Shown: piece after piece, positions 28,834-45,188 of the stretch
Layout of the letters: every line of letters begins with the position of its first letter
Position numbering within the stretch: position 1 is the stretch's first letter
Source of the DNA: an uncultured Owenweeksia sp.
GTDB taxonomy: Bacteria; Bacteroidota; Bacteroidia; Flavobacteriales; Schleiferiaceae
NCBI GenBank assembly: GCA_937146805.1
Contig: CAKZRR010000021.1
Coordinates: forward strand, 1 to 64,000
Direction: 5' to 3'
Length of the DNA: 64,000 nt
Notes under the pieces: model-generated
Told to the model about the DNA's origin: nothing
The model's input: the letters and a program-made list of their open reading frames with translations, nothing else
The model's database searches: none
Program-made: the position numbers and the translations under genes

Positions 28834-29334
28834 TTACCAGCTTCCTATAGATTGATTTAAAATGTTCTCAGCCAGCTCTTCCACAATGGTGGTCATCAGT
28901 TCTTCTTTCACTTCCGAAATATCCACATTTGCATCGAAATCTGCAAAGCGATTAAAGTTTTGATCAAAACTTTTTTTCTCCTCTAGGGTATTTACATACG
29001 AAACCTTCACTGTAATAGTCAATCGGTTTTGCGCTACTTTACCAATATCACTGGCCTGTGCGCTAATTGGCTTAATACTGTAATCTACTATAGAGCCTGA
29101 AAATTGCAGGTCTCCTTTTTTGCTTACCAACTCCAAAGGCGTTTGGCGCACAAAAATATCGCGCAAAGCCTCGGTGAAATTTTGGCTTAGCTGTGGCTCA
29201 ACAATTTGCGCATAATTAGGAAAAAAATCTACCGAGATGGTCTTTGCATCACCCACATGTCCTCCTGTAAAAGAATATCCACCACCACAAGCAGCCAACA
29301 CAGCTAAGGTTACAAACGCTAAGAATTTTTTCAT
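28834..29334 (-). CDS. lptE: LptE-family LPS-assembly lipoprotein
   Basis: This 166-residue lipoprotein (signal VTLAVLAAC, acylated Cys 16) matches the Bacteroidota LptE family: GGGYSFTGG after the lipobox, then KTISVDFFPNYAQIVEPQLSQNFTEALRDIFV and LQFSGSIVDYSIKPI. LptE plugs the LptD outer-membrane barrel and helps place LPS in the outer leaflet. Its start overlaps the end of the sigma-54 activator (ATGA) and its stop abuts the next gene, so it is part of a tightly coupled unit. LptD is not in this window. Confidence 0.9.
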   Translation of the reverse strand: MKKFLAFVTLAVLAACGGGYSFTGGHVGDAKTISVDFFPNYAQIVEPQLSQNFTEALRDIFVRQTPLELVSKKGDLQFSGSIVDYSIKPISAQASDIGKVAQNRLTITVKVSYVNTLEEKKSFDQNFNRFADFDANVDISEVKEELMTTIVEELAENILNQSIGSW

Positions 29335-30596
29335 TGTAAATCGAATTGTTTTATTTTCCGATACAAGGTTCGTTCCGAAATGCCCAATTCGTCCGCAGCA
29401 TTTTTTCGCTTTCCGTTATTTCTTTCTAAGGCCTTCTTTATTAGCTCTAACTCCTTCTCTTGCAAAGATAAATTCTCCTCTTCAATCGTCTCGTGATCAG
29501 TATCGTAAGTACTGGTGTGCAACTCCGTATCGCCCTCCTTGTAAATAGGAACATAAGGCGCTACACCTGTTGAACTCGGGGCAGGTGCTTTAGCCTCGTC
29601 CTCTCCGTAAATTTTACTCAACAACTGTGAGTTATCCTTTTCAAACTCATCCGTTAGGCCATTCTTCATCAGCTCCAAGGTGAGGTTTTTAAGGTCATGC
29701 AAATCGCTTTTCATGTCAAACAAAATCTTGTACATAATTTCGCGTTCGCTCGAGAAATCAGAAGATGACGGCCCTCCTTTGGGTTGATATAAAGCCGGTA
29801 ATTCGGTTTGACCAATTTCGGGTAAATAGGCACGCAACATATTCCCATCAACTTCTCTATTTTGCTCTACCACCGACATTTGTTCGGCTAAATTTCGCAA
29901 TTGCCTAATATTTCCTGGCCAGCGATAATGTGATAACATCTCAATAGCATCGGGCCTTAGCCTAATGGGTGGCAAGTGGTATTTATCGGCAAAATCGGCC
30001 ACAAATTTTCTGAAAATTAAGTGTACATCTTCCTGTCTTTCTCGCAATGGCGGAATTTTTATTTCCACCGTATTAAGTCTATAATACAAGTCCTCTCTAA
30101 ACTTATTGCGCTTAATAGCCTCCAATAAATTCACATTGGTGGCGGCCACTATTCGCACATCGGTTTTTAAGGTTTTTGATGATCCCACTTTAATAAACTC
30201 GCCCGTTTCTAACACACGTAACAAACGTACCTGCGTGCTTAAAGGCAATTCGCCTACCTCATCTAAAAATATAGTACCCCCGTTGGCCTCTTCAAAATAA
30301 CCTTTGCGAGCTGCGGTAGCTCCTGTAAACGAACCTTTCTCATGCCCAAACAGCTCACTATCAATAGTTCCTTCTGGTATTGCACCACAATTTACCGCTA
30401 TATAAGGGTTGTGCTTACGATGCGATTGATGGTGGATAATCCGCGGAATAGCTTCCTTACCCACACCACTTTCGCCACTTACCAGCACAGAAATATCGGT
30501 AGAAGCTACTTGCACCGCTTTATTTAAAGCATGCTCTAAAACCACCGAACGGCCAATAATACCAAAACGCTGTTTTATTTCCTGCAAGTTGCTCAT
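29331..30596 (-). CDS. Sigma-54-dependent AAA+ transcriptional activator without receiver domain
   Basis: The 421-residue protein begins directly with an AAA+ domain: Walker A GESGVGKE (41-48), the sigma-54 contact loop GSFTGA (88-93, the usual form is GAFTGA), Walker B GGTIFLDEVGEL, and RLLRVLETGEF. It ends with a Fis-type helix-turn-helix (RKNAADELGISERTLYRKIKQF). There is no N-terminal sensor or receiver domain, so control must come from another protein or from its own expression. It overlaps the preceding small gene and lptE by four bases. Such activators between miaB and lptE are common in Flavobacteriia; their targets are mostly unknown. Confidence 0.92.
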   Translation of the reverse strand: MSNLQEIKQRFGIIGRSVVLEHALNKAVQVASTDISVLVSGESGVGKEAIPRIIHHQSHRKHNPYIAVNCGAIPEGTIDSELFGHEKGSFTGATAARKGYFEEANGGTIFLDEVGELPLSTQVRLLRVLETGEFIKVGSSKTLKTDVRIVAATNVNLLEAIKRNKFREDLYYRLNTVEIKIPPLRERQEDVHLIFRKFVADFADKYHLPPIRLRPDAIEMLSHYRWPGNIRQLRNLAEQMSVVEQNREVDGNMLRAYLPEIGQTELPALYQPKGGPSSSDFSSEREIMYKILFDMKSDLHDLKNLTLELMKNGLTDEFEKDNSQLLSKIYGEDEAKAPAPSSTGVAPYVPIYKEGDTELHTSTYDTDHETIEEENLSLQEKELELIKKALERNNGKRKNAADELGISERTLYRKIKQFDLQ

Positions 30597-30997
30597 TCTA
30601 CTGTTATACGGGTTAAAATGTTTTTGTCCTGATAAATTTTATTGCCCGTAGTAGTATTTATTACAAATGGTTTAAAGGCCTTTAAAGTAAGATAGCTAGC
30701 GGTAGGCAATGGTTGTGGTACTTTTAAAAAATCACGTCTTCCGCTACCAATTCCTTCCCAAAGCAATTGGTTAGCTGCATCGTAAATCTTAATTTCAAAA
30801 CCCGACTGCAAATTTTCGATGCAAGTGGTTCTACTGCTATCTTCAATACAAATGGTAAGGAGGCCTTCCGTTTTTATACTTTGATTTACCACCTTAAAGC
30901 GCAGGTTATTATCCACCCATTTTTCGCCTACCTTTTGTTGTGCCCAAGCTCCTGCACTGGCCATAATCAATAAAGCAACTGTAATTTTTTTAAACAT
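30593..30997 (-). CDS. Small exported protein of unknown function
   Basis: A 134-residue protein with a clear signal peptide (ITVALLIMASAGAWAQ, cleavage near residue 20). The mature part looks beta-rich, with a cysteine pair in CIEDSSRTTCIENL that could form a disulfide, and the short segments LRFKVVNQSI and YLTLKAFKPFVIN. I do not recognise the family. It lies five bases after miaB and overlaps the sigma-54 activator by four, so it is almost certainly translated in that operon. Confidence 0.7.
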   Translation of the reverse strand: MFKKITVALLIMASAGAWAQQKVGEKWVDNNLRFKVVNQSIKTEGLLTICIEDSSRTTCIENLQSGFEIKIYDAANQLLWEGIGSGRRDFLKVPQPLPTASYLTLKAFKPFVINTTTGNKIYQDKNILTRITVE

Positions 30998-31002
30998 TTC
31001 TG

Positions 31003-32445
31003 TTAATTTTCTTTAATTCCTAATAATGTTCCTCCGGTACAATCGGTAATTTTTACGTTTACAAAATCACCTGGTTTTTCATCTCCTTTCGGGAAAACAA
31101 CCACCGTATTATAGGTGTTTCGTCCGTACCAATCGTTTTCCGATTTTTTAGACGAACCCTCAATTAAAACCTCCTGCACATCGCCTACCATCTGCTTATG
31201 ACGTACCAGCGAATGCGCTCGTTGTTTATCAATAATTTCTTGTAATCGCCTCTTTTTTACCTCCAACGGAATATCGTCTTCCATTTTACGAGCCGCATAC
31301 GTGTTCGGCCTTTCGGAATAGTAAAACATGTAACCAAAATCATAGTTTACAGCATCCATCAAGCTAAGGGTTTCGGCATGGTCTTCTTCCGTTTCGGTAG
31401 GGAAGCCCGTAATCATATCATGCGAAATGCCGCAATTGGGAATAATCTTTCTAATACGATCTATCAATGCTAAATATTCCTCGCGATTATGCCCACGGTT
31501 CATTAACTTAAGCACTCGGCTGCTGCCCGATTGAACCGGTAAGTGAATGTATTTACAAATGTTATCGTACTTGGCTATAGCATGCAAAACGTCATCATGC
31601 ATGTCCTGTGGGTTGCTGGTGCTAAAACGAATACGCACCTTTGGAGCTGCCTCAGCCGCCATTTCTAGCAATTGCGCAAATCCCACGGAAGTGGCTTTGG
31701 CGGCATCACTCGCTTTTTCAAAATCCTTTTTTAAACCACCACCGTACCACAGGTAGCTATCTACGTTCTGCCCCAATAAGGTGATCTCCTTGTAACCTTG
31801 GGCTTCTAAGTCTTTAACCTCTTCTAAAATTGTTTGGGGGTTTCTACTTCTTTCCCGGCCCCGGGTAAAAGGCACCACGCAAAAGGTGCACATATTATCA
31901 CAACCTCTCGTAATCGAAACAAAAGCGTTAATACCGTTGGTACCCAGGCGTACAGGGCTTACATCAGCATAGGTTTCCTCTTTAGAGAGGATTACATTAA
32001 CGGCTTTTCGGCCAGCATCTAGCTCTTGCACCAAATTGGGTAGATCGCGGTAGGCATCTGGCCCCACCACCATATCAACCAACTTTTCTTCGTCAAGTAG
32101 CTTGTCTTTTAAACGCTCGGCCATGCAACCTAAAACACCAATTTTTAACGCAGGCTGCGCCTTTTTAAGTTTATTAAAATTGGTTAAACGTTTGCGCACG
32201 GTTTGCTCTGCTTTATCGCGAATGGAGCACGTATTCAATAAGATAAGATCCGCTTCTTCTACATCTTTGGTGGTTCCATAACCCTCTTTTGTAAGTATGG
32301 AAGCTACAATTTCGCTGTCCGAAAAATTCATTTGGCAGCCGTAACTTTCTATATATAGTTTCTTTGCCGAAAGCCCGTCCTCACGAAGCAAAGCTTCCCC
32401 TTGACGTGTTTCTTCCAACATTTGTTTTGTTTCTGAATTGTGCAT
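31003..32445 (-). CDS. miaB: tRNA-2-methylthio-N6-dimethylallyladenosine synthase
   Basis: MiaB is a radical SAM methylthiotransferase that modifies A37 of tRNAs reading codons that start with U. Three domains are visible: the N-terminal UPF0004 domain with cluster cysteines Cys37, Cys73 and Cys107; the radical SAM core with [10 protein letters not shown] (Cys182, 186, 189), GQNVDSY and [12 protein letters not shown]; and the C-terminal TRAM domain. Length 480 is normal. It is the first gene of a minus-strand series that continues through lptE and secG and has a TAnnTTTG promoter. Confidence 0.97.
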
Positions 32446-35747: not shown

Positions 35748-38252
35748 ATGCCCAAGAATCTTGTTATTGTTGAGTCACCTGCCAAGGCAAAAACCATCGA
35801 AAAATATTTAGGGAAGGACTATCAAGTTGAATCAAGTTACGGCCACATTCGTGACTTGGTAAAAAAAGATATGGGTATTGACTTGGCCAACAACTATGAG
35901 CCCAAGTATGCTATTTCGGATGACAAGAAGGAAGTGGTTCGAAAATTAAAAAGCTTAAGCAAAAAAGTAGATACGGTTTGGTTGGCATCGGATGAGGATC
36001 GTGAAGGAGAAGCTATTGCTTGGCACTTGGCCGAAGCACTAGGTTTAGATACGCAAAATACGCACCGTATTGTGTTTCATGAAATTACCAAAGGCGCCAT
36101 TACCAAAGCCATTGAAAACCCACGAAAAATAAATCAAAACCTAGTAAATGCACAGCAAGCCAGGCGTATTTTAGATCGCTTGGTAGGGTATGAGCTTTCG
36201 CCTGTTTTATGGAAAAAAGTAAAAGCAGGCTTATCTGCTGGTAGAGTACAGTCTGTTGCGGTAAGACTTATTGTTGAGCGCGAAGAGAAAATCACCAATT
36301 TCACACCAGTAGCCCAGTTTAAGGTAGTAGCTCAATTTAAAAACAAAGATGGTAAAAGCTTTAAAGCAGAATTAAATCACAACTTTAAAACTGAAAAAGA
36401 AGCCTACCAATTTTTAGAAGATTGCAAAAAACACGACTTCACGGTTAATAGTGTAGAAACAAAGCCAGCAAAAAAATCTCCAGCCGCTCCTTTTACTACC
36501 TCTACGCTGCAACAAGAAGCTGCTCGAAAATTATATTTTAGTGTTGGCCAAACTATGCAGGTTGCTCAACGCTTATATGAATCGGGGCAAATCACCTATA
36601 TGAGAACTGATTCGGTGAATTTATCTAATGAAGCTAGTAATGCAGCCGAAGCAGAAATCACCAAGGCCTACGGGGCCGATTTTGCCCAACGAAGAAATTA
36701 CACCACTAAAAGTAAAGGAGCACAAGAAGCGCACGAAGCCATTCGTCCAACCAACATGGGGCAGTCGCAATTTGTAGGCGATGCACAACAAGCCCGTTTA
36801 TACGACTTAATTTGGAAACGCACCTTGGCTTCTCAAATGAGCGATGCCCAATTGGAGCGCACCGTTTTAAAAATATCAACTCCTGATAAAACGTATGACT
36901 TTGTAACCCGTGGTGAGGTAATCACCTTTGAAGGATTTTTAAAAGTGTATCTGGAAGGAACGGATGATGAAGATACCGAGGAACAGGAAGGGATGCTGCC
37001 CAATATTAAAAAAGGGGAGAATTTAAATCATCATTTAATTAGAGCTACCCAACGCTTCACCAAAGGTCCTGCTCGATTTACAGAAGCCAGCTTGGTTAAA
37101 AAATTAGAAGAACTTGGCATTGGTCGTCCTTCTACTTATGCTCCTACTATTAGCACCATTCAAAGAAGAGAGTATGTAGAGAAATCGGATTTAGAAGGTA
37201 TTGTACGCAATTACCAACAGCTTAGTTTAACTAGTGATGAGCTAAAAACCGAAACTTTAAGCGAAAGGACTGGTGCCGATAAAGGAAAACTAATACCTAC
37301 GGATATTGGCACAGTAGTAAACAACTTTTTGGTACAACATTTTGACACCGTTTTAGATTTCAACTTCACCGCTAAGGTAGAAGAGCAATTTGATGAGATT
37401 GCAGAGGGGCATGAAAAATGGTGGGAAATGATTGACTCCTTCTATTCTGATTTTCATCCTAACCTTAAAAAGGTAGAGGAAACTTCAGAAAGAGCATCAG
37501 GCGAACGCCTATTAGGAGTACACCCCGAAAGCGGTAAAAACATTTATGCCCGTATTGGACGATACGGCTCAATGGTTCAAATTGGAGAAGCGGATGATGA
37601 AGAAAAACCTCGATTTGCTAGCCTTCAAAAAACACAAAGCATTAGTAGTATTACGCTGGAAGAAGCACTTACCCTTTTTGAGCTTCCGCGTACGGTGGGT
37701 ACTTTTAGAGATTTAGATGTGGAAGTAAACATCGGTAGATTTGGCCCTTACGTAAAATACGATGGTAAATTTATTTCGCTTGCCAAAGGTGAGGACCCGA
37801 TGGAGGTTGGCTTAGACCGAGCTACTGATTTGATAAAAGCCAAAGAAGAAGCAGATGCTCCGATTGCGCATTACGAAGAGTTACCCGTTCAAAAGGGCGT
37901 TGGTAGATTTGGTCCCTTTTTAAAATGGAACAACATCTTTATTAATGTAAACAAGAAATACGACTTTGATAATTTAAGTCACGAGAATATTGTTGAACTG
38001 ATAGAAGACAAAAAGAAAAAAGAACGTGAGAAGGTTCTTCACAACTGGGAAGAGCAAGGTATAAGAGTGGAAAAAGCACGCTGGGGCAGATCTAATGTTA
38101 TTCAGGGTAAAATAAAAGTAGAATTACCAAAAACCATTGACGCAACTAAGTTAACTTTAGAAGACGCGGAAAAGATTATTGCTAAAGCAAAACCTAAAAG
38201 TAAAGCAAAGGCAAAAACTAAGGCCAAGCCCAAAGCTAAAGCCAAGAAATAA
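35748..38252 (+). CDS. topA: DNA topoisomerase I
   Basis: TopA relaxes negative supercoils through a 5'-phosphotyrosyl intermediate. The Toprim domain begins LVIVESPAKAKTIEKYLG and has the metal residues in SDEDREGEAIAWH; the active-site tyrosine lies in ITYMRTDSVNLS, and the GIGRPSTYAPTISTI motif follows. The C-terminal part has topo-C repeats (GRFGPYVKYDGKF, GRFGPFLKWNN) instead of cysteine zinc fingers, and a Lys/Ala-rich tail. I place the start at 35748 (MPKNLVIVE); a longer frame from a TTG at 35685 adds 21 unlikely residues. It is followed three bases later by the arginase-fold gene. Confidence 0.96.
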   Translation: MPKNLVIVESPAKAKTIEKYLGKDYQVESSYGHIRDLVKKDMGIDLANNYEPKYAISDDKKEVVRKLKSLSKKVDTVWLASDEDREGEAIAWHLAEALGLDTQNTHRIVFHEITKGAITKAIENPRKINQNLVNAQQARRILDRLVGYELSPVLWKKVKAGLSAGRVQSVAVRLIVEREEKITNFTPVAQFKVVAQFKNKDGKSFKAELNHNFKTEKEAYQFLEDCKKHDFTVNSVETKPAKKSPAAPFTTSTLQQEAARKLYFSVGQTMQVAQRLYESGQITYMRTDSVNLSNEASNAAEAEITKAYGADFAQRRNYTTKSKGAQEAHEAIRPTNMGQSQFVGDAQQARLYDLIWKRTLASQMSDAQLERTVLKISTPDKTYDFVTRGEVITFEGFLKVYLEGTDDEDTEEQEGMLPNIKKGENLNHHLIRATQRFTKGPARFTEASLVKKLEELGIGRPSTYAPTISTIQRREYVEKSDLEGIVRNYQQLSLTSDELKTETLSERTGADKGKLIPTDIGTVVNNFLVQHFDTVLDFNFTAKVEEQFDEIAEGHEKWWEMIDSFYSDFHPNLKKVEETSERASGERLLGVHPESGKNIYARIGRYGSMVQIGEADDEEKPRFASLQKTQSISSITLEEALTLFELPRTVGTFRDLDVEVNIGRFGPYVKYDGKFISLAKGEDPMEVGLDRATDLIKAKEEADAPIAHYEELPVQKGVGRFGPFLKWNNIFINVNKKYDFDNLSHENIVELIEDKKKKEREKVLHNWEEQGIRVEKARWGRSNVIQGKIKVELPKTIDATKLTLEDAEKIIAKAKPKSKAKAKTKAKPKAKAKK

Positions 38253-38255
38253 GCC

Positions 38256-39437
38256 ATGAGTCTTTCGGATTTTTTAGCACCCGTAAGGGATAGTATTATC
38301 TCCTTTAATAATAAGGAGTGGCACTCACAAACGATAGCTGGGCAATTAGCCATTCACAAAGAACTGGAAGGTGTACCTGATTTAACAGATATAAAGGTTG
38401 CACTTATTGGGATTGTAGAAGACCGCGGGGCTTTAAACAATACAGGTTGCAAATCTGCTCCTGATGAAATTCGACATTATCTATACCCTCTTTATACCGG
38501 GAAATGGAAAAACAAAATAGCCGATCTCGGAAACATATACCCGGGAGAAACTTTAGATGATAGCCATGCTGCCCTAAAATCCATTTGCACTGAATTGCTT
38601 AAAAAAGGGATTACCCCCATAATTTTAGGCGGCAGCCAAGATATGACCTATGCCAACTACCGAGCTTACGACTCTATGGAGCAATCGGTAAATTTGGTGA
38701 GTATTGATGCGCGATTTAATTTAGGAGAACACAACCAAAGCCTTAACTCCTCTAATTATTTAAGTCATGTCATTCTCAAAAAACCCCATTTACTTTATAA
38801 TTTCAGCCAAATCGGGTATCAAACTTATTTTACAAATCAGCACGAAATTGAATTAATGGACAGAATGTACTTTGATGTACATCGATTAGGTCATTTCCGC
38901 AACAATATTCAAGAAACGGAACCTATTCTTAGAGATGCCGATTTAGTAAGCTTCAACCTTTCTGCTATTCGACACCCCGATGCACCGGGGAATGCGAACT
39001 CATCTCCCAATGGATTTACTGGCGAAGAGGCTTGTGCCTTAAGCCGCTATGCCGGTATCAGTGATAAAGTAAGCTCCTTTGGTATTTATGAATGTAACCC
39101 CTCTAAAGACTTTAATGGACAAACCGCTCACCTAGTGGCACAAATGGTTTGGTACTTTATTGAAGGCTTTAATGCGCGCAAAGGAGATTACCCAATTGCC
39201 AGTAAAAAGGATTATAAGCGATTCACCGTTTTAATGGAAGAAGGCGATCATGAACTAATTTTTTATAAAAGTCACCTAAGCGATAGATGGTGGATAGAAG
39301 TCCCCATTACAGAGATTGGAACTTTTGCTAAAAGAACGAGACACAAGTTAATACCTTGTTCAATAAGCGATTACAAAAAAGCTTGCCAAAATGAAACTCC
39401 CACACGTTGGTGGAGTGCCATGAAAAAAAACATGTAG
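38256..39437 (+). CDS. Arginase/formimidoylglutamase-fold protein lacking most metal ligands
   Basis: The 393-residue protein follows the ureohydrolase fold (GIVEDRGALNNTGCKSAPDEIRHYL; IILGGSQDMTYANYRAY; LVSIDARFNLGEHNQ; DADLVSFNLSAIRHPDAPG). The positions that bind the two Mn ions in arginase are mostly changed: the GGDHS site reads GGSQD, DAHxD reads DARFN, and SxDxD reads SFNLS. By my alignment only one of six ligands, Asp151, remains. A canonical hydrolase activity is therefore doubtful. It lies between topA and the type IX secretion operon. Related Bacteroidota genes are often annotated formimidoylglutamase. The C-terminal 70 residues extend beyond the usual fold. Confidence 0.8.
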   Translation: MSLSDFLAPVRDSIISFNNKEWHSQTIAGQLAIHKELEGVPDLTDIKVALIGIVEDRGALNNTGCKSAPDEIRHYLYPLYTGKWKNKIADLGNIYPGETLDDSHAALKSICTELLKKGITPIILGGSQDMTYANYRAYDSMEQSVNLVSIDARFNLGEHNQSLNSSNYLSHVILKKPHLLYNFSQIGYQTYFTNQHEIELMDRMYFDVHRLGHFRNNIQETEPILRDADLVSFNLSAIRHPDAPGNANSSPNGFTGEEACALSRYAGISDKVSSFGIYECNPSKDFNGQTAHLVAQMVWYFIEGFNARKGDYPIASKKDYKRFTVLMEEGDHELIFYKSHLSDRWWIEVPITEIGTFAKRTRHKLIPCSISDYKKACQNETPTRWWSAMKKNM

Positions 39438-39514: not shown

Positions 39515-39522
39515 TATCTTTG
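39515..39522 (+). promoter_or_regulatory. -7 promoter element of the porP-gldKLMN unit
   Basis: TATCTTTG matches TAnnTTTG and lies 48 bases before the porP-like start, in an A/T-rich gap. Confidence 0.6.
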
Positions 39523-39569: not shown

Positions 39570-40520
39570 ATGAAGAAAATCTACGTGGCATTTTTCAGTA
39601 TTCTAACCTATGCTGGTTTTGCGCAACAAGACATACAGTTTACGCAGTATATGTTCAATAAAATATACTATAACCCCGGAGTAACCGGTAGTGGTAGTGC
39701 CATTTGCGTAAATGCATTTCACCGTAGCCAATGGGTAGGCTTTGAAGGAGCTCCCACCAGTCAATCGGTAAATATTAATGCACCCATCAATAAGCTGCAC
39801 GGTGGCTTGGCCTTACGAATTGCGAACGATCAAATTGGTTTTTTCCAAAACATAAATTTCGGACTTAACTATGGTTATCAGTTTAAGAATATAATGGGTG
39901 GAACTTTAGGCTTAGGTATTGGAGTAGATGTTTATAACTCTGCAATTAAAGATGCTATTTGGATTACTCCTTCATCTCTTGGCGGAGGCACGGATACTGG
40001 TATTCCTCAGGATAAAAAATCAGGAACTTCGGTAGATGTTTCCTTTGGAGCCTATTTTGAAAATAGCGACTGGTGGGCTGGAATATCTAGCACGCATTTA
40101 GCGGAAACGAGTAGCAGTATTCAATCAGCAGCAGGCGGAGATGCTAATTATGCGGGAAAAAGACACCTCTATGCAATGGGAGGGTATAATTACGACCTTA
40201 CAGCCTCTAACATTACCCTGCAACCAAGTCTTTTAATCAAGTCAGACCTCGTTAGCTCACCAGTAGTTGACGTTAACATAATGGCACTCTACAATAAAAA
40301 ACTTTGGGCAGGCGTTACATACAGGCTTACTGAAGCTGTAGGTATTAACGTAGGGTATCAAATTATGAAATCTTTAAAAGCTGGATATGCATATGACGTT
40401 CCTTTAACAGAAGTATCACAACAAGGTGGAGGAAGTCATGAGATATTTTTGAACTATTGTTTCAAAATAGAAATACCAGTTAAACCACATGGTTACCACA
40501 AAACCATAAGATTTTTGTAA
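39570..40520 (+). CDS. PorP/SprF-family type IX secretion outer-membrane protein
   Basis: A 316-residue protein with a signal peptide (YVAFFSILTYAGFAQ) followed by the family start QQDIQFTQYMFNKIYYNPGVTGS and the motif FHRSQWVGFEGAPTSQSVNINAPI. The rest alternates beta strands of an outer-membrane barrel and ends in an aromatic-rich strand. PorP/SprF proteins help anchor or secrete T9SS cargo, often with a partner carrying a type B C-terminal signal. Several paralogues usually exist per genome, so the exact partner is open. It precedes gldK by 63 bases in what looks like the same unit. Confidence 0.9.
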   Translation: MKKIYVAFFSILTYAGFAQQDIQFTQYMFNKIYYNPGVTGSGSAICVNAFHRSQWVGFEGAPTSQSVNINAPINKLHGGLALRIANDQIGFFQNINFGLNYGYQFKNIMGGTLGLGIGVDVYNSAIKDAIWITPSSLGGGTDTGIPQDKKSGTSVDVSFGAYFENSDWWAGISSTHLAETSSSIQSAAGGDANYAGKRHLYAMGGYNYDLTASNITLQPSLLIKSDLVSSPVVDVNIMALYNKKLWAGVTYRLTEAVGINVGYQIMKSLKAGYAYDVPLTEVSQQGGGSHEIFLNYCFKIEIPVKPHGYHKTIRFL

Positions 40521-40583: not shown

Positions 40584-42005
40584 ATGAAAAAACTCATTAT
40601 CATGATGTTCGGTGCTTCTATTTTAGCAGCATCGTGCAGTAGCAATGACCAAGGAGAGTTGGTCGGTGTTCAGGATCGAACGACTTGGTACCCCTCAGAG
40701 CCTTATGGAATGGTAAATATTCCACAAGGATCTTTTAATATGGGAAACTCAGATCAAGACGTTCCGAACAGTCTTACAACACCCACAAAAACCGTATCGG
40801 TAGGTTCTTTTTGGATCGATCAAACGGAAATTACTAATAACGAGTACCGCCAATTTGTAAATTGGGTACGTGACTCTATTCTTCGTTACCGTTTAGGTGA
40901 AGATGGACTAGTGGAAGGTTATGAGTTAATTGACGCATCTGAAATGGATGACCCAAGCTTCTTTGATGAATACAAGCAGCTTAACTATCCTGACTCACTG
41001 CAAAGCAGAATTGACTGGGAGCCCTACTTAGAGTGGAACACAGATCGCTATCCTAGCCAAGAGTATACCGATATCATGCAAAGCATGTATTTACCACCCG
41101 AAGAAATGTTCTTAGGAAGACGTATGGTAGATTCACGTCAGCTTGTGTACACCTATTATATCCTTAATAAGCAAAAAGCTTCGCGTAAATCAAACCGTGT
41201 AAACTACGATTATAAGGATGCTGATGATGATGGCGAGTTTTTCTCGTACCGTGATTACATCAAGGATAATAAAGAGAAATCACATCGTGCTTCTTTCTTC
41301 GAAAGTGGATCAATTCACGTTTACCCAGATACCCTTGCCTGGGTGCATGATTTCACATACAGTTATAATGATCCAATGCACGATAAATACTTTTGGCACC
41401 CGGCTTATGACGAGTATCCAGTAGTAGGTGTAAATTGGAACCAAGCTGTTGCTTTCTGTAACTGGAGAACGAAATACCGTAATGATTATCTAAAAAGTGA
41501 TGGGCAGGCTCCGGAGCAAGAATTTAGACTTCCTACAGAAGCCGAATGGGAATACTCATCAAGAGGTGGCCAAAACGGAACTACTTACCCTTGGGGTGGA
41601 CCATACACACTTAATAGCGCTGGTTGTTACTTAGGTAACTTTAAGCCTAGACGTGGTAATTTAAGTGCCGATGGCGGAATGTACACTGTAGCTGCCACAG
41701 CTTATGCACCAAATGGCTATAACTTATACAACATGGCGGGTAATGTATCCGAGTGGACGAATACTGCCTATGAAGCTGCTTCGTATTATTACATTAGCGA
41801 CATCAGTCCGAATTTTGAGTACAACTCATTAGATGGTGATGAAGAAACCCTTAAGCGTAAGGTTGTAAGAGGTGGTAGCTGGAAAGATGTTGCCTACTAT
41901 CTTCAAAACAGTACTCGTGATTATGAATACCAAGATACTGCCAAATGTTATGTTGGCTTTAGAACGGTACAAAGTTTCATGGGACGAGACTTAAAAGACT
42001 TTTAA
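40584..42005 (+). CDS. gldK: Gliding motility / type IX secretion lipoprotein GldK
   Basis: A 473-residue lipoprotein (signal LIIMMFGASILAASC, Cys at 18) with an FGE-sulfatase-like fold: MVNIPQGSFNMGNSDQD, SVGSFWIDQTEITNNEYRQFVNWVRDS, YPVVGVNWNQAVAFCNWR, FRLPTEAEWEYSSRGG, NGYNLYNMAGNVSEW and KVVRGGSWKD. GldK (PorK in Porphyromonas) forms a periplasmic ring under the outer membrane with GldN. It could be confused with GldJ, which has the same fold, but the gldL-gldM-gldN genes directly after it identify it as GldK. Confidence 0.93.
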   Translation: MKKLIIMMFGASILAASCSSNDQGELVGVQDRTTWYPSEPYGMVNIPQGSFNMGNSDQDVPNSLTTPTKTVSVGSFWIDQTEITNNEYRQFVNWVRDSILRYRLGEDGLVEGYELIDASEMDDPSFFDEYKQLNYPDSLQSRIDWEPYLEWNTDRYPSQEYTDIMQSMYLPPEEMFLGRRMVDSRQLVYTYYILNKQKASRKSNRVNYDYKDADDDGEFFSYRDYIKDNKEKSHRASFFESGSIHVYPDTLAWVHDFTYSYNDPMHDKYFWHPAYDEYPVVGVNWNQAVAFCNWRTKYRNDYLKSDGQAPEQEFRLPTEAEWEYSSRGGQNGTTYPWGGPYTLNSAGCYLGNFKPRRGNLSADGGMYTVAATAYAPNGYNLYNMAGNVSEWTNTAYEAASYYYISDISPNFEYNSLDGDEETLKRKVVRGGSWKDVAYYLQNSTRDYEYQDTAKCYVGFRTVQSFMGRDLKDF

Positions 42006-42060: not shown

Positions 42061-42729
42061 ATGGCACTAATAGATGTAAACGGAAAAGGCTTTAAAAACT
42101 TTATGGCCAAACTTTATGGATGGGGAGCAGCAGTAGTAATACTTGGTGCGATGTTTAAAATCCTTCACTACCCTGGAGCAGATATCATGCTGGTAGTTGG
42201 TCTTACAACAGAGGCCGTTATTTTCTTCTTTTCAGCTTTTGAAAAACCACATGCCGAATTAGATTGGACATTGGTGTATCCTGAGCTAGCAGGAATGGAA
42301 GATCCTGATATGGATGAATTTTCAAAAAGCAGCAACTTGTCTCCAACACAAGAGCTAGACAATATGCTTGAAGATGCTAAGATTGATGCTGAGCTTATCG
42401 AAAGCCTAGGTAGTGGTCTTAGAAACTTTGGAGATGCCGCTAGTAAATTAAATGATACGGTTGATGCCGCTTCTGCTACCAAAGAATATGGTGAGCAAAT
42501 TTCTTTAGCCTCTAAGAACATGGAATCTTTGAACGCCTTATACGCTGTACAGTTAGAAAGCTCTGCTAACCACATGGAAGCTCAAAACAATCTTATTTCT
42601 AAGCTTAGTAACACCATCAACGATTCTGAGAAATTGGGTGATGAAGTTTCTACCTTGGTAAATAACATGGGCAAATTGAATAATGTTTATGGCGGTATGT
42701 TATCAGCTATGAACCTTAAGCAAGGCTAA
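42061..42729 (+). CDS. gldL: Type IX secretion / gliding motor protein GldL
   Basis: The 222-residue protein has two inner-membrane helices near the N-terminus (about residues 17-33, LYGWGAAVVILGAMFKI, and 37-56, PGADIMLVVGLTTEAVIFFF) with the typical LHYPGA between them, then a cytoplasmic helical region with repeated heptads (EQISLASKNMESLNALYAVQLESSANHMEAQ). GldL and GldM form the proton-driven motor that powers type IX secretion and gliding. It lies 55 bases after gldK and 64 before gldM. Confidence 0.95.
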   Translation: MALIDVNGKGFKNFMAKLYGWGAAVVILGAMFKILHYPGADIMLVVGLTTEAVIFFFSAFEKPHAELDWTLVYPELAGMEDPDMDEFSKSSNLSPTQELDNMLEDAKIDAELIESLGSGLRNFGDAASKLNDTVDAASATKEYGEQISLASKNMESLNALYAVQLESSANHMEAQNNLISKLSNTINDSEKLGDEVSTLVNNMGKLNNVYGGMLSAMNLKQG

Positions 42730-42793: not shown

Positions 42794-44335
42794 ATGGCCA
42801 GTGGAAAACAGACCCCAAGGCAAAAGATGATTAACATGATGTACCTCGTGTTAACTGCTCTTTTGGCTCTAAACATCTCTAAGGACATTTTAGATGCCTT
42901 AACTAAGCTAAATACTAGTCTTAGTCATACCGTAGAAACCGTAGATAAAAAGAATGCAGAAGTATATGCAGCTTTTGAACGTGCGGTGGGCGAAAACGCT
43001 GAAAAGGCGGGTCCTTGGAGGGACAAAGCAGTAGATGTACAAAAAAAATCAAATGCTTTGTTTACGCACATTGAGTCGCTAAAAAACAAGTTAATTGAGG
43101 TGAGTGGTGGCATCGATGAAGAAACAGGTCATCCAAAATCCTTGGACGCACGTGAGCCACCAGCTAACTATCTTTTGAATCAAAAAAATGCCTCTAAACT
43201 AAAGGCTGAAATTGATGCCTATCGTGACGCGATTCTGAAATATACCGAAGACCCAAGCATGATTGCTAATATCAACGATTTATTTGATACGGGTAAGCAA
43301 GTAGTAGGAGAAGATAAAATAGAAACCGACTGGGAGCATGCTAATTTTGATCATTTCCCATTGGCAGCTATTCTACCTTTCCTCACTGATATTCAGGCGA
43401 AAGTTCGTAATTCAGAATCAGATTTAATAAGCCAATTAGCTTTAAAAATTAATGCTAAGGATATTAAAGTTACAGGCGTACGCCCAGTAGTGCAAGCTAC
43501 CTCTACCTACATTACTCAAGGGTCTGAGTATGTGGCCGATGTTTATTTGGCTGCTTTTGATGACACCCAGGAACCTGAAATTTCTGTGAATGGAACCCCA
43601 TTGGATGCGGATCAAATCAAAAATGGTGTGGGTAAAGTTCGCTTTAAGGCAAACAAATTAGGCGAACAAAAATGGGCTGGTGTAATAACACTGAAGCAAA
43701 TGGGACAAGAGGACAAGACGTTCGATGTAACGGGTTCTTATACCGTTGCGCCTCCCACAGTAGTAATTTCACCAACCAAGATGAACGTACTATACCGTGG
43801 TGTTGATAATCCATTGGAAATTGGCGTACCCGGTGTTGACCCCTCTAAAATCAGAGTGAATGGCCCAGGTGTTAAACAAATTTCTGCTGGTAATTATATG
43901 GCCAACGTTACCAATGTGAAAGGTAAAACAGTAAAAATCAGTGTTTCTGTTGAGCAAACTAATGAGGAGACGGGCAAAAAAACCATGAAAAATTATGGCG
44001 ACAAAGAATTCCGTATAAAAGGGGTTCCACCAGCTCAAGGTACTATCTACAAAAAGACAACTGGTATCTTCTCAAAAGGAGCCGTTAAAAAAGCTCCAGT
44101 AGAAGCCATTTTGCGTGATTTCCCTTTTGATTTAACGCTACGTGTAGTTTCTTTTGAAATTGCCATTCCTGGTTTCCCACCCGAAACGATAAAAGGTAAC
44201 ACTCTATCAAGCGATGCCAAACTTAGGATTGATAAACTAAAACCAGGCTCACCTATTACCTTCCGTAAAATTATAGCCAAAGGGCCCAAAGGCCTTAGGG
44301 TAGATGCCAGTAACATTTCTATTGACGTTAACTAA
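42794..44335 (+). CDS. gldM: Type IX secretion / gliding motor protein GldM
   Basis: A 513-residue protein with a single N-terminal membrane helix (MINMMYLVLTALLALNISKDIL at about residues 11-32) that passes through the GldL ring, followed by a large periplasmic region of stacked domains (helical 60-220, then beta domains from about 225). The C-terminal domains (VAPPTVVISPTKMNVLYRGVDNPLEIGVPGVDP) contact the GldK-GldN ring. Length and N-terminus are typical of the family. It ends 19 bases before gldN. Confidence 0.95.
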   Translation: MASGKQTPRQKMINMMYLVLTALLALNISKDILDALTKLNTSLSHTVETVDKKNAEVYAAFERAVGENAEKAGPWRDKAVDVQKKSNALFTHIESLKNKLIEVSGGIDEETGHPKSLDAREPPANYLLNQKNASKLKAEIDAYRDAILKYTEDPSMIANINDLFDTGKQVVGEDKIETDWEHANFDHFPLAAILPFLTDIQAKVRNSESDLISQLALKINAKDIKVTGVRPVVQATSTYITQGSEYVADVYLAAFDDTQEPEISVNGTPLDADQIKNGVGKVRFKANKLGEQKWAGVITLKQMGQEDKTFDVTGSYTVAPPTVVISPTKMNVLYRGVDNPLEIGVPGVDPSKIRVNGPGVKQISAGNYMANVTNVKGKTVKISVSVEQTNEETGKKTMKNYGDKEFRIKGVPPAQGTIYKKTTGIFSKGAVKKAPVEAILRDFPFDLTLRVVSFEIAIPGFPPETIKGNTLSSDAKLRIDKLKPGSPITFRKIIAKGPKGLRVDASNISIDVN

Positions 44336-44354
44336 AAATTTACTCAAGACAGTT

Positions 44355-45188
44355 ATGAAAAAAATTGCATTTGGAATATTTATGTTGTCTGCCTTACTGA
44401 TTGGATCAGTAAGTCACGGACAATTAACCCCAGAAGATGATGGAATCATTGTGGATCAAGACAAGCACTACCATCACAATCAAGTGTTTCCTTACCCTTA
44501 CCTAAGGGAAGCAGATATGATGTGGAGTACGCGCCATTGGGAACGTATTGATCTTCGTCAAAAAGTAAATCATCACTTATATTACCCAGTACAGCCTATT
44601 CCAGATAGAAAAAGTTTGTACGATGTATTAGTGGATGGTATATTAACAGAGGGTACTATTGTAGAAGTTTTTGGAGACTACCGCTTTGAGATTCCTTTGA
44701 CACCGGAACAGGTTCAGGGATATACAGCTTCTATTGATACTACCTTTGATCCAGACGACAGAAGTATTATACTTCTAATTGATACCATTAAGGTAACTGC
44801 CAAGGATGTTATTTCTTATGAAGTAAAATCGGATTGGTTTTTTGACAAGCAACGTGGTGAAATGAAAAACCGTATTATCGGTCTTTCTCCTCGTGTAAAA
44901 CACCCCAAAACGGGTGATGAGTATAACTTATTTTGGGTTTGGTTCCCAGATGCTCGTTATGCTTTAGCCACACACGTTGCTTTCAATAATCAAAATAATT
45001 CCTCAAGGTTAACCTTTGACCAAGTATTTCACTTGCGTCAGTTTAACTCTACTATTTATAAAGAGGACAACGTATATGATCGCCAAATTTCTGAATACAA
45101 ACAGAATGCTCCTTTAGAGCAATTACTTGAAGCAGAACAAATCAAGGAAGGCTTACGCAACTTTGAGCACGATCTTTGGGAATACTAG
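44355..45188 (+). CDS. gldN: Type IX secretion / gliding protein GldN
   Basis: GldN (PorN) is the periplasmic partner of GldK. The 277-residue product from the ATG at 44355 has a signal peptide (IAFGIFMLSALLIGSVSHG) and the family segments READMMWSTRHWERIDLRQKVNHHLYYP, RKSLYDVLVDGIL, EVKSDWFFDKQRGEMKNRIIGLSP and FWVWFPDARYALA. A longer frame from 44304 overlaps gldM and hides the signal peptide, so I reject it. A strong hairpin follows at 45207, closing the gldKLMN unit. Confidence 0.95.
   Translation: MKKIAFGIFMLSALLIGSVSHGQLTPEDDGIIVDQDKHYHHNQVFPYPYLREADMMWSTRHWERIDLRQKVNHHLYYPVQPIPDRKSLYDVLVDGILTEGTIVEVFGDYRFEIPLTPEQVQGYTASIDTTFDPDDRSIILLIDTIKVTAKDVISYEVKSDWFFDKQRGEMKNRIIGLSPRVKHPKTGDEYNLFWVWFPDARYALATHVAFNNQNNSSRLTFDQVFHLRQFNSTIYKEDNVYDRQISEYKQNAPLEQLLEAEQIKEGLRNFEHDLWEY

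Follow-up and report, generated by a model that had tools for sequence, protein, structure and literature searches.

The 64,000-nucleotide stretch of DNA analysed here as a whole (the window) encodes, directly behind topA, a protein with the ureohydrolase fold and without the two-metal centre. By sequence comparison, this protein appears to belong to a class-wide family of pseudo-ureohydrolases carrying a domain that was unmatched here in Pfam or the PDB. We regard it as an even call that the family consists of non-catalytic cytosolic adaptors made with TopA, the type IX secretion (T9SS) operon next to it being separately promoted and mainly a chromosomal neighbour. The computed basis comprises the fold, the loss of ligands, the range of the family, the spacing of the genes, the enrichment of a promoter-like element and the presence of the gene as sole PF00491 member in small genomes. 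The features concerned are the following.

35748..38252, + strand, topA, DNA topoisomerase I (start codon by inspection)
38256..39437, + strand, pseudo-ureohydrolase gene (393 aa; ATG 3 nt past the topA stop codon)
38319..39182, + strand, arginase-fold domain, residues 22-309 (structural alignment range of the AlphaFold model)
38628..38642, + strand, degenerate motif 1, GGSQD, residues 125-129 (ligand H to Q)
38706..38720, + strand, degenerate motif 2, DARFN, residues 151-155 (D151 kept, H to R, D to N)
38949..38963, + strand, degenerate motif 3, SFNLS, residues 232-236 (D to N, D to S)
39183..39434, + strand, C-terminal domain, residues 310-393 (near-invariant F336, W345, W346, C368 and Y373; one copy in the window genome)
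39515..39522, + strand, TATCTTTG, match to the -7 element TAnnTTTG in the gap before porP
39570..40520, + strand, porP/sprF family gene
40584..42005, + strand, gldK
42061..42729, + strand, gldL
42794..44335, + strand, gldM
44355..45188, + strand, gldN (start by inspection)

When the sequence was re-read, the open reading frame and the motifs GGSQD, DARFN, SFNLS and HPDAPG (residues 240-245) were found where the original prediction had placed them, as were the neighbours, topA on one side and then porP, gldK, gldL, gldM and gldN on the other. The mechanically called gldN frame (44304-45188) shares 32 nt with gldM; gldN probably starts at 44355 (MKKIAFG...).

The window protein scored 87.8 bits against PF00491 (Pfam gathering cut-off 22), which places it in that family. 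The curated family closest by score was HutG (TIGR01227), with 97.7 bits against an equivalog cut-off of 229.15, and all 27 members of alignment A1 matched TIGR01227 at E <= 0.001, more than matched any other family. The AlphaFold model computed with alignment A1 (pLDDT 90.4, pTM 0.92) has the three-layer fold of known PF00491 members. Its best structural match was Trypanosoma cruzi formiminoglutamase (4myn; Z 37.7, rmsd 1.9, 278 residues); Bacillus subtilis formimidoylglutamase (3m1r) matched with Z 35.3, and metformin hydrolase chains (MfmAB/MefH) ranked high in Foldseek. At the six ligand positions (128, 151, 153, 155, 234 and 236), whose roles in the site we take to be those in arginase, only D151 is intact, and the six-ligand di-metal centre of the catalytic ureohydrolases is thus absent. 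The prediction of a folded protein that had lost five of six metal ligands was therefore correct on the Pfam score, the model with its structural matches and the ligand count. The protein probably has no enzymatic activity. A signal peptide was not seen by eye, and a cytosolic location is presumed.

The same positions were compared in an alignment of 185 distinct members, of which 179 had letters in all six ligand columns. Three ligands were kept in 141 members, four in 23 and two or fewer in 15; none of the 179 kept five or six. The usual pattern is Q-D-x-D-D-[S/G/N], and the pattern of the window, QDRNNS, was found in one of 149 sequences. The loss of five ligands thus appears to be a species-level extreme in a family whose ligands are already reduced, the norm being a loss of three. 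The ligands specific to site B, as we assign them from arginase, were mostly lost (H present in 6/185, D in 5/185), and D151, D155 and D234, which we take to be the first metal site (site A) of arginase, were intact together in 159 of 179 members. Copies from the same genus (L006-L008) have all three aspartates, and two of the five losses in the window are therefore recent.

Since the trio is kept so widely, species other than that of the window might still have a site with one metal. An enzyme of altered chemistry, with one metal, at site A (Q/H, D, D, D), and a recent secondary loss in the window copy, would account for the 159 members with the trio among mostly lost site-B ligands and for the three full trios within the genus. 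T. cruzi formiminoglutamase also has structures with and without N114H, according to the entry titles, and N114 presumably stands where histidine is usual. We nevertheless consider such an enzyme unlikely. The trio was broken in 22 of 180 tree rows, the window being one of the cases, and at least 15 changes between intact and broken were needed on the FastTree tree, which was made without the ligand columns, had weak support at 56 of 177 inner branches and was flagged for a meeting of long branches. Four f5 members have N, S, S and N at positions 128, 151, 155 and 234, and position 279, which we take to be the guanidinium-binding glutamate of arginase, varies. In the window itself two of the three trio residues are Asn. 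The f5 members (L174-L177) are diverged proteins of 356-358 aa encoded near exopolysaccharide-like genes (named by inspection), with L174 and L175 beside topA.

Conservation was highest away from the metal site. The near-fixed positions included R73, Y77, D90, Q189, R210, E222, P223, R226, W299, G304, F336, W345, W346, C368 and Y373, with conservation of 1.00 for R73, Q189 and W299 and 0.99 for E222 and R226 in the fold, and of 0.99 for F336 and C368, 1.00 for W345 and 0.98 for Y373 in the C-terminal domain; the metal site gave lower values (D151 0.95, D155 0.88, D234 0.94). Nine of these 15 positions (Y77, Q189, R226, W299, G304, F336, W346, C368 and Y373) occur in none of the three paralogues in the same genome. 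At the 45 positions most fixed in the family, the window copy departs only at D234 and retains the other 44. Compared with the three same-genus copies, pN was 0.18-0.20 against a saturated pS of 0.76-0.83, and the window gene is under strong amino-acid constraint. A decaying gene without function could explain the two further ligand losses that the three relatives do not share; the open frame, this constraint and the 44 retained positions make decay hardly credible.

The C-terminal domain (last 84 residues), modelled alone, gave four strands and two helices with a pLDDT of 80.9, and it is present in a single copy in the window genome. Against the PDB the model returned no fold match at E <= 0.001, an absence that proves nothing for so small a model. 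Pfam searches with the domain of 30 members gave no consistent match, the sole one below 0.01 being SH3b_P2 (0.0011) in one member. Mean majority identity was 0.54 for residues 306-393, compared with 0.65 for residues 121-160 and 0.69 for residues 251-305; a set of residues within the domain, rather than the domain as a whole, is fixed. In four of five f18 genomes the profile match starts only at profile position 182-207, and the C-terminal half is therefore the part still recognisable there.

Matches to the window protein were found in 232 of 296 genomes of the order, where one (G012, 2.6e-11) is doubtful and possibly another ureohydrolase. The family profile matched 306 of 326 genomes of the class Bacteroidia at E <= 0.001, a level at which a match may be another ureohydrolase; among the matches listed the doubtful case, weak and of full length, is G704 (2.9e-21), and the f18 matches are weak yet cover the C-terminal half. 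In the phylum sample, which includes the genomes of the order and the class, 185 of 392 genomes matched. Among the matches listed from outside the class, none covers the profile beyond position 325 of 390, and they thus lack the greater part of the C-terminal domain. One member (L020, genome G226) is a single copy with its frame split by one TAA, either a draft-assembly error or a real break.

The metformin hydrolases among the best fold matches, with a MefH-beta subunit described as lacking four of six ligands, raise the reading that the family protein is the inactive subunit of a heteromeric ureohydrolase. A possible partner could be found in the window genome, which has four PF00491 proteins in all; the other three (L001, L002 and L004) have metal motifs that looked intact on inspection, and their best curated matches were agmatinase, arginase and hutG, all below cut-off. 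Another PF00491 match was also carried by 19 of 36 small genomes with the family gene. In a PF00491 search of 41 mostly small genomes, however, the only match lay at the coordinates of the family gene in at least 12, so that no active partner of this fold family was found there; five more had a single match of fitting length, probably the family gene, and in G020 a divergent family member was missed by PF00491. Beside the gene, no second open reading frame matching the family profile was seen in 195 loci, although a remote ureohydrolase could escape the profile. These genomes with no other PF00491 match refute the heteromer as a general mechanism, and we hold it to be very improbable in any form. 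Since an inactive subunit needs an active partner, and small genomes with no other PF00491 match exist, a binding protein is the favoured reading.

A role in histidine degradation was also considered from the neighbours and rejected. Among 23 clustered loci a hutI-like gene adjoined the family gene in L071 only; in L102 one lay roughly 5 kb upstream, and the members at both loci have degenerate ligands. In L071 (8992-11530) hutI follows the family member on the same strand (427.9 bits), and L071 is the locus for which hutI was confirmed by profile. This adjacency may reflect an origin from a histidine-degradation operon.

The position of the gene was examined in loci from relatives of the window. 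All 20 loci (17-18 kb) taken from genomes of the order with a match, covering nine families, had topA, the family gene and gldK in this order, with porP before gldK in part of them; porP was not found between the family gene and gldK in the loci of f3, f4 and f15, and gldK matched weakly (24%) in L042, the f15 locus. The distance from the gene to gldL was 2.2-4.0 kb in 73 of 94 class genomes and 22 of 27 families, the 94 being genomes with both places among the matches listed, which favours high scorers. The predicted fixed place beside gldKLMN is thus conserved in the order and through much of the class sample.

The two flanks differ in spacing. Between topA and the gene the median gap was 9 nt, with less than 30 nt in 85 of 137 loci, overlaps of 4 nt included, versus a median of 128 nt between the gene and porP or gldK, with less than 30 nt in one of 108 loci; all of these loci are relatives and not independent. 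In the second gap TAnnTTTG, which we take to be the consensus of the Bacteroidota -7 element, was present in 45 of 107 loci, against a mean of 14.6 and a maximum of 24 in 100 shuffles. The same element with TTG 17-23 nt upstream was present in 8 of 107 (mean 1.7 and maximum 5 after shuffling). Upstream of topA, within 150 nt, TAnnTTTG was present in 48 of 80 (shuffled 12.0) and the fuller pattern with TTG in 13 of 80 (shuffled 1.8). In the window the gap before porP has no -33 element at the expected spacing from the -7 match at 39515. It is likely, from these distances, that topA and the family gene form one transcription unit, and the results suggest that the family gene and porP/gldK are in separate ones. 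As judged by spacing, co-synthesis with TopA is the firmest clue to the role of the protein.

Among 110 distinct loci with enough flank, 53 had both neighbours, 17 had topA only, three had gld-type genes only and 36 had neither; the figure of 17 was obtained after L042 was set aside for its weak gldK match (18 with it), and 28 of the 36 had been fetched because they looked unlinked. The three loci with gld-type genes and without topA are all from f18. In five of the loci with topA only (L070, L074, L100, L125 and L104) a profile check downstream of the family gene found no gld gene, and the remaining ones were judged by BLAST with the genes of the window. In seven named loci the gene downstream of topA and the family gene converges with them and belongs to one cluster; in L104 it was identified as ruvC.

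Further neighbours were recorded by inspection. An NtrC-like regulator, an lptE-like gene and miaB lie on the minus strand of the window at 29331-32445, and the same trio is upstream of topA and the family gene in L189 (f95), L191 (f90) and L204 (f20); the neighbourhood therefore reaches beyond the order. In f21 the family gene is next to or near an nqrF-like gene (L165, L166, L179, L194, L195 and L196), and in f21 and f22 it is next to or near a murQ-like gene (L167, L168, L179, L195, L196 and L197).

These data bear on the prediction that the protein has a structural or regulatory role linked to secretion or gliding. In its strongest form the protein would be a dedicated cytosolic component or regulator of T9SS or gliding that might, for example, bind to GldL at its cytosolic portion and tune the motor or the way it is assembled. 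The conserved distance to gldL speaks for such a component, and so does the fact that 8 of the 20 loci with the topA, family gene, gldK order come from genomes of 1.3-1.9 Mb. Across 326 class genomes, 304 carried both the gene and GldL, five carried neither, two had the gene alone and 15 had GldL alone (odds ratio 51, p 1e-5, the kinship of the genomes being ignored), and 317 of 319 GldL matches passed the cut-off of the GldL family. A core T9SS component would be present wherever the core motor is, but the gene was absent from the 15 GldL-only genomes among 319 with GldL, including all those sampled from f23 (four) and f25 (four). Within the order GldL occurred without the gene in six genomes (G008, G021 and G030 of f8, G009 of f9, G011 of f11 and G039 of f14). 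In G011 (L182) porP directly follows topA, and in G009 (L184) gldK does; the family gene is absent there, and it is also absent from the genome-wide profile matches of both genomes. G011 and G009 are natural lineages lacking the family gene. Given these genomes and their gene order, the gene is not obligatory for the secretion system.

A second linkage was seen in f18 and f108, where in four out of 13 genomes (G679, G353, G436 and G440) the gene adjoins murF and lies no more than 5 kb from gldJ. In L181 the best gldJ match (411 bits) is below the cut-off of 458 and is followed by a porP-family gene and porU. This placement keeps the idea of secretion alive; against it, the gldJ linkage is absent in 9 of the 13 genomes, and the gene converges with murF. 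A role of the family protein in secretion or gliding is accordingly possible, and the conserved place on which the prediction was founded has held up. The inferred functional link was weakened by the finding that the tight partner is topA, by the separate transcription units suggested by the gaps and the promoter-like element, by the 17 loci linked to topA without a gld gene found beside and by the absence of the gene from GldL genomes. We consider a dedicated T9SS component doubtful. A variant in which an adaptor made with TopA connects the state of chromosome supercoiling or replication to T9SS-gliding assembly, by means of the C-terminal domain unmatched in Pfam, seems to us quite improbable.

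In the adaptor reading, to which we gave the even call, the second metal site would have been lost early in the family and the small C-terminal domain gained. The protein would serve as a cytosolic binding or scaffold protein, with conserved residues in both the fold and the C-terminal domain holding a partner and the old metal pocket being dispensable. It would be made together with TopA by co-transcription, and the adjoining secretion operon would have its own promoter and be mainly a chromosomal neighbour. Against this adaptor count the departure of the gene from topA in several families, with neither neighbour in 36 of 110 loci, the retention of D151, D155 and D234 in most members, the association with GldL and the moderate mean conservation of the C-terminal domain.

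Inactive ureohydrolases are known as single cases. In this family one is kept by most sampled bacteria of a class, with an extra domain of its own, and in some streamlined genomes it is the sole protein with the arginase fold. Similarity-based annotation would be apt to name the family formimidoylglutamase and so credit species with a step of histidine degradation. One species paper (PMC11278836) reports formimidoylglutamase as the only step present of its pathway, and the gene concerned may be the family gene. In the open literature, subscription papers and preprints aside, searches with T9SS, gliding and genus terms found no paper describing the gene. The gene adjoins a well-studied motility locus; with usually one family member per genome, its role is directly testable in a laboratory strain.

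Three known systems and the paralogues of the window genome were compared with the family. The inactive subunit of metformin hydrolase, MefH-beta, has the ureohydrolase fold and is reported to have lost four of its six metal ligands (PMC11399263). MefH-beta, or MfmB, functions as part of a complex that contains an active paralogue, whereas the family gene occurs in genomes with no other PF00491 protein. The PDB entries 4rhi-4rhq, which we take to be the Trypanosoma brucei arginase-like protein, were weak sequence matches to the window protein (E 0.04-0.12) and were not among the best 50 structural matches to its model. That protein, a eukaryotic case likened here by description, is reported to be inactive, with key residues absent (PMC10820115). 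The three paralogues in the window genome share the fold family PF00491 with the window protein but differ in their intact-looking metal motifs. In sequence score and fold the family appears most similar to formimidoylglutamase HutG (TIGR01227; 3m1r, 4mxr), the curated family that scored highest and one of the nearest in fold; the window protein differs from HutG in scoring far below the cut-off of 229, in having lost the di-metal site and in carrying the extra C-terminal domain.
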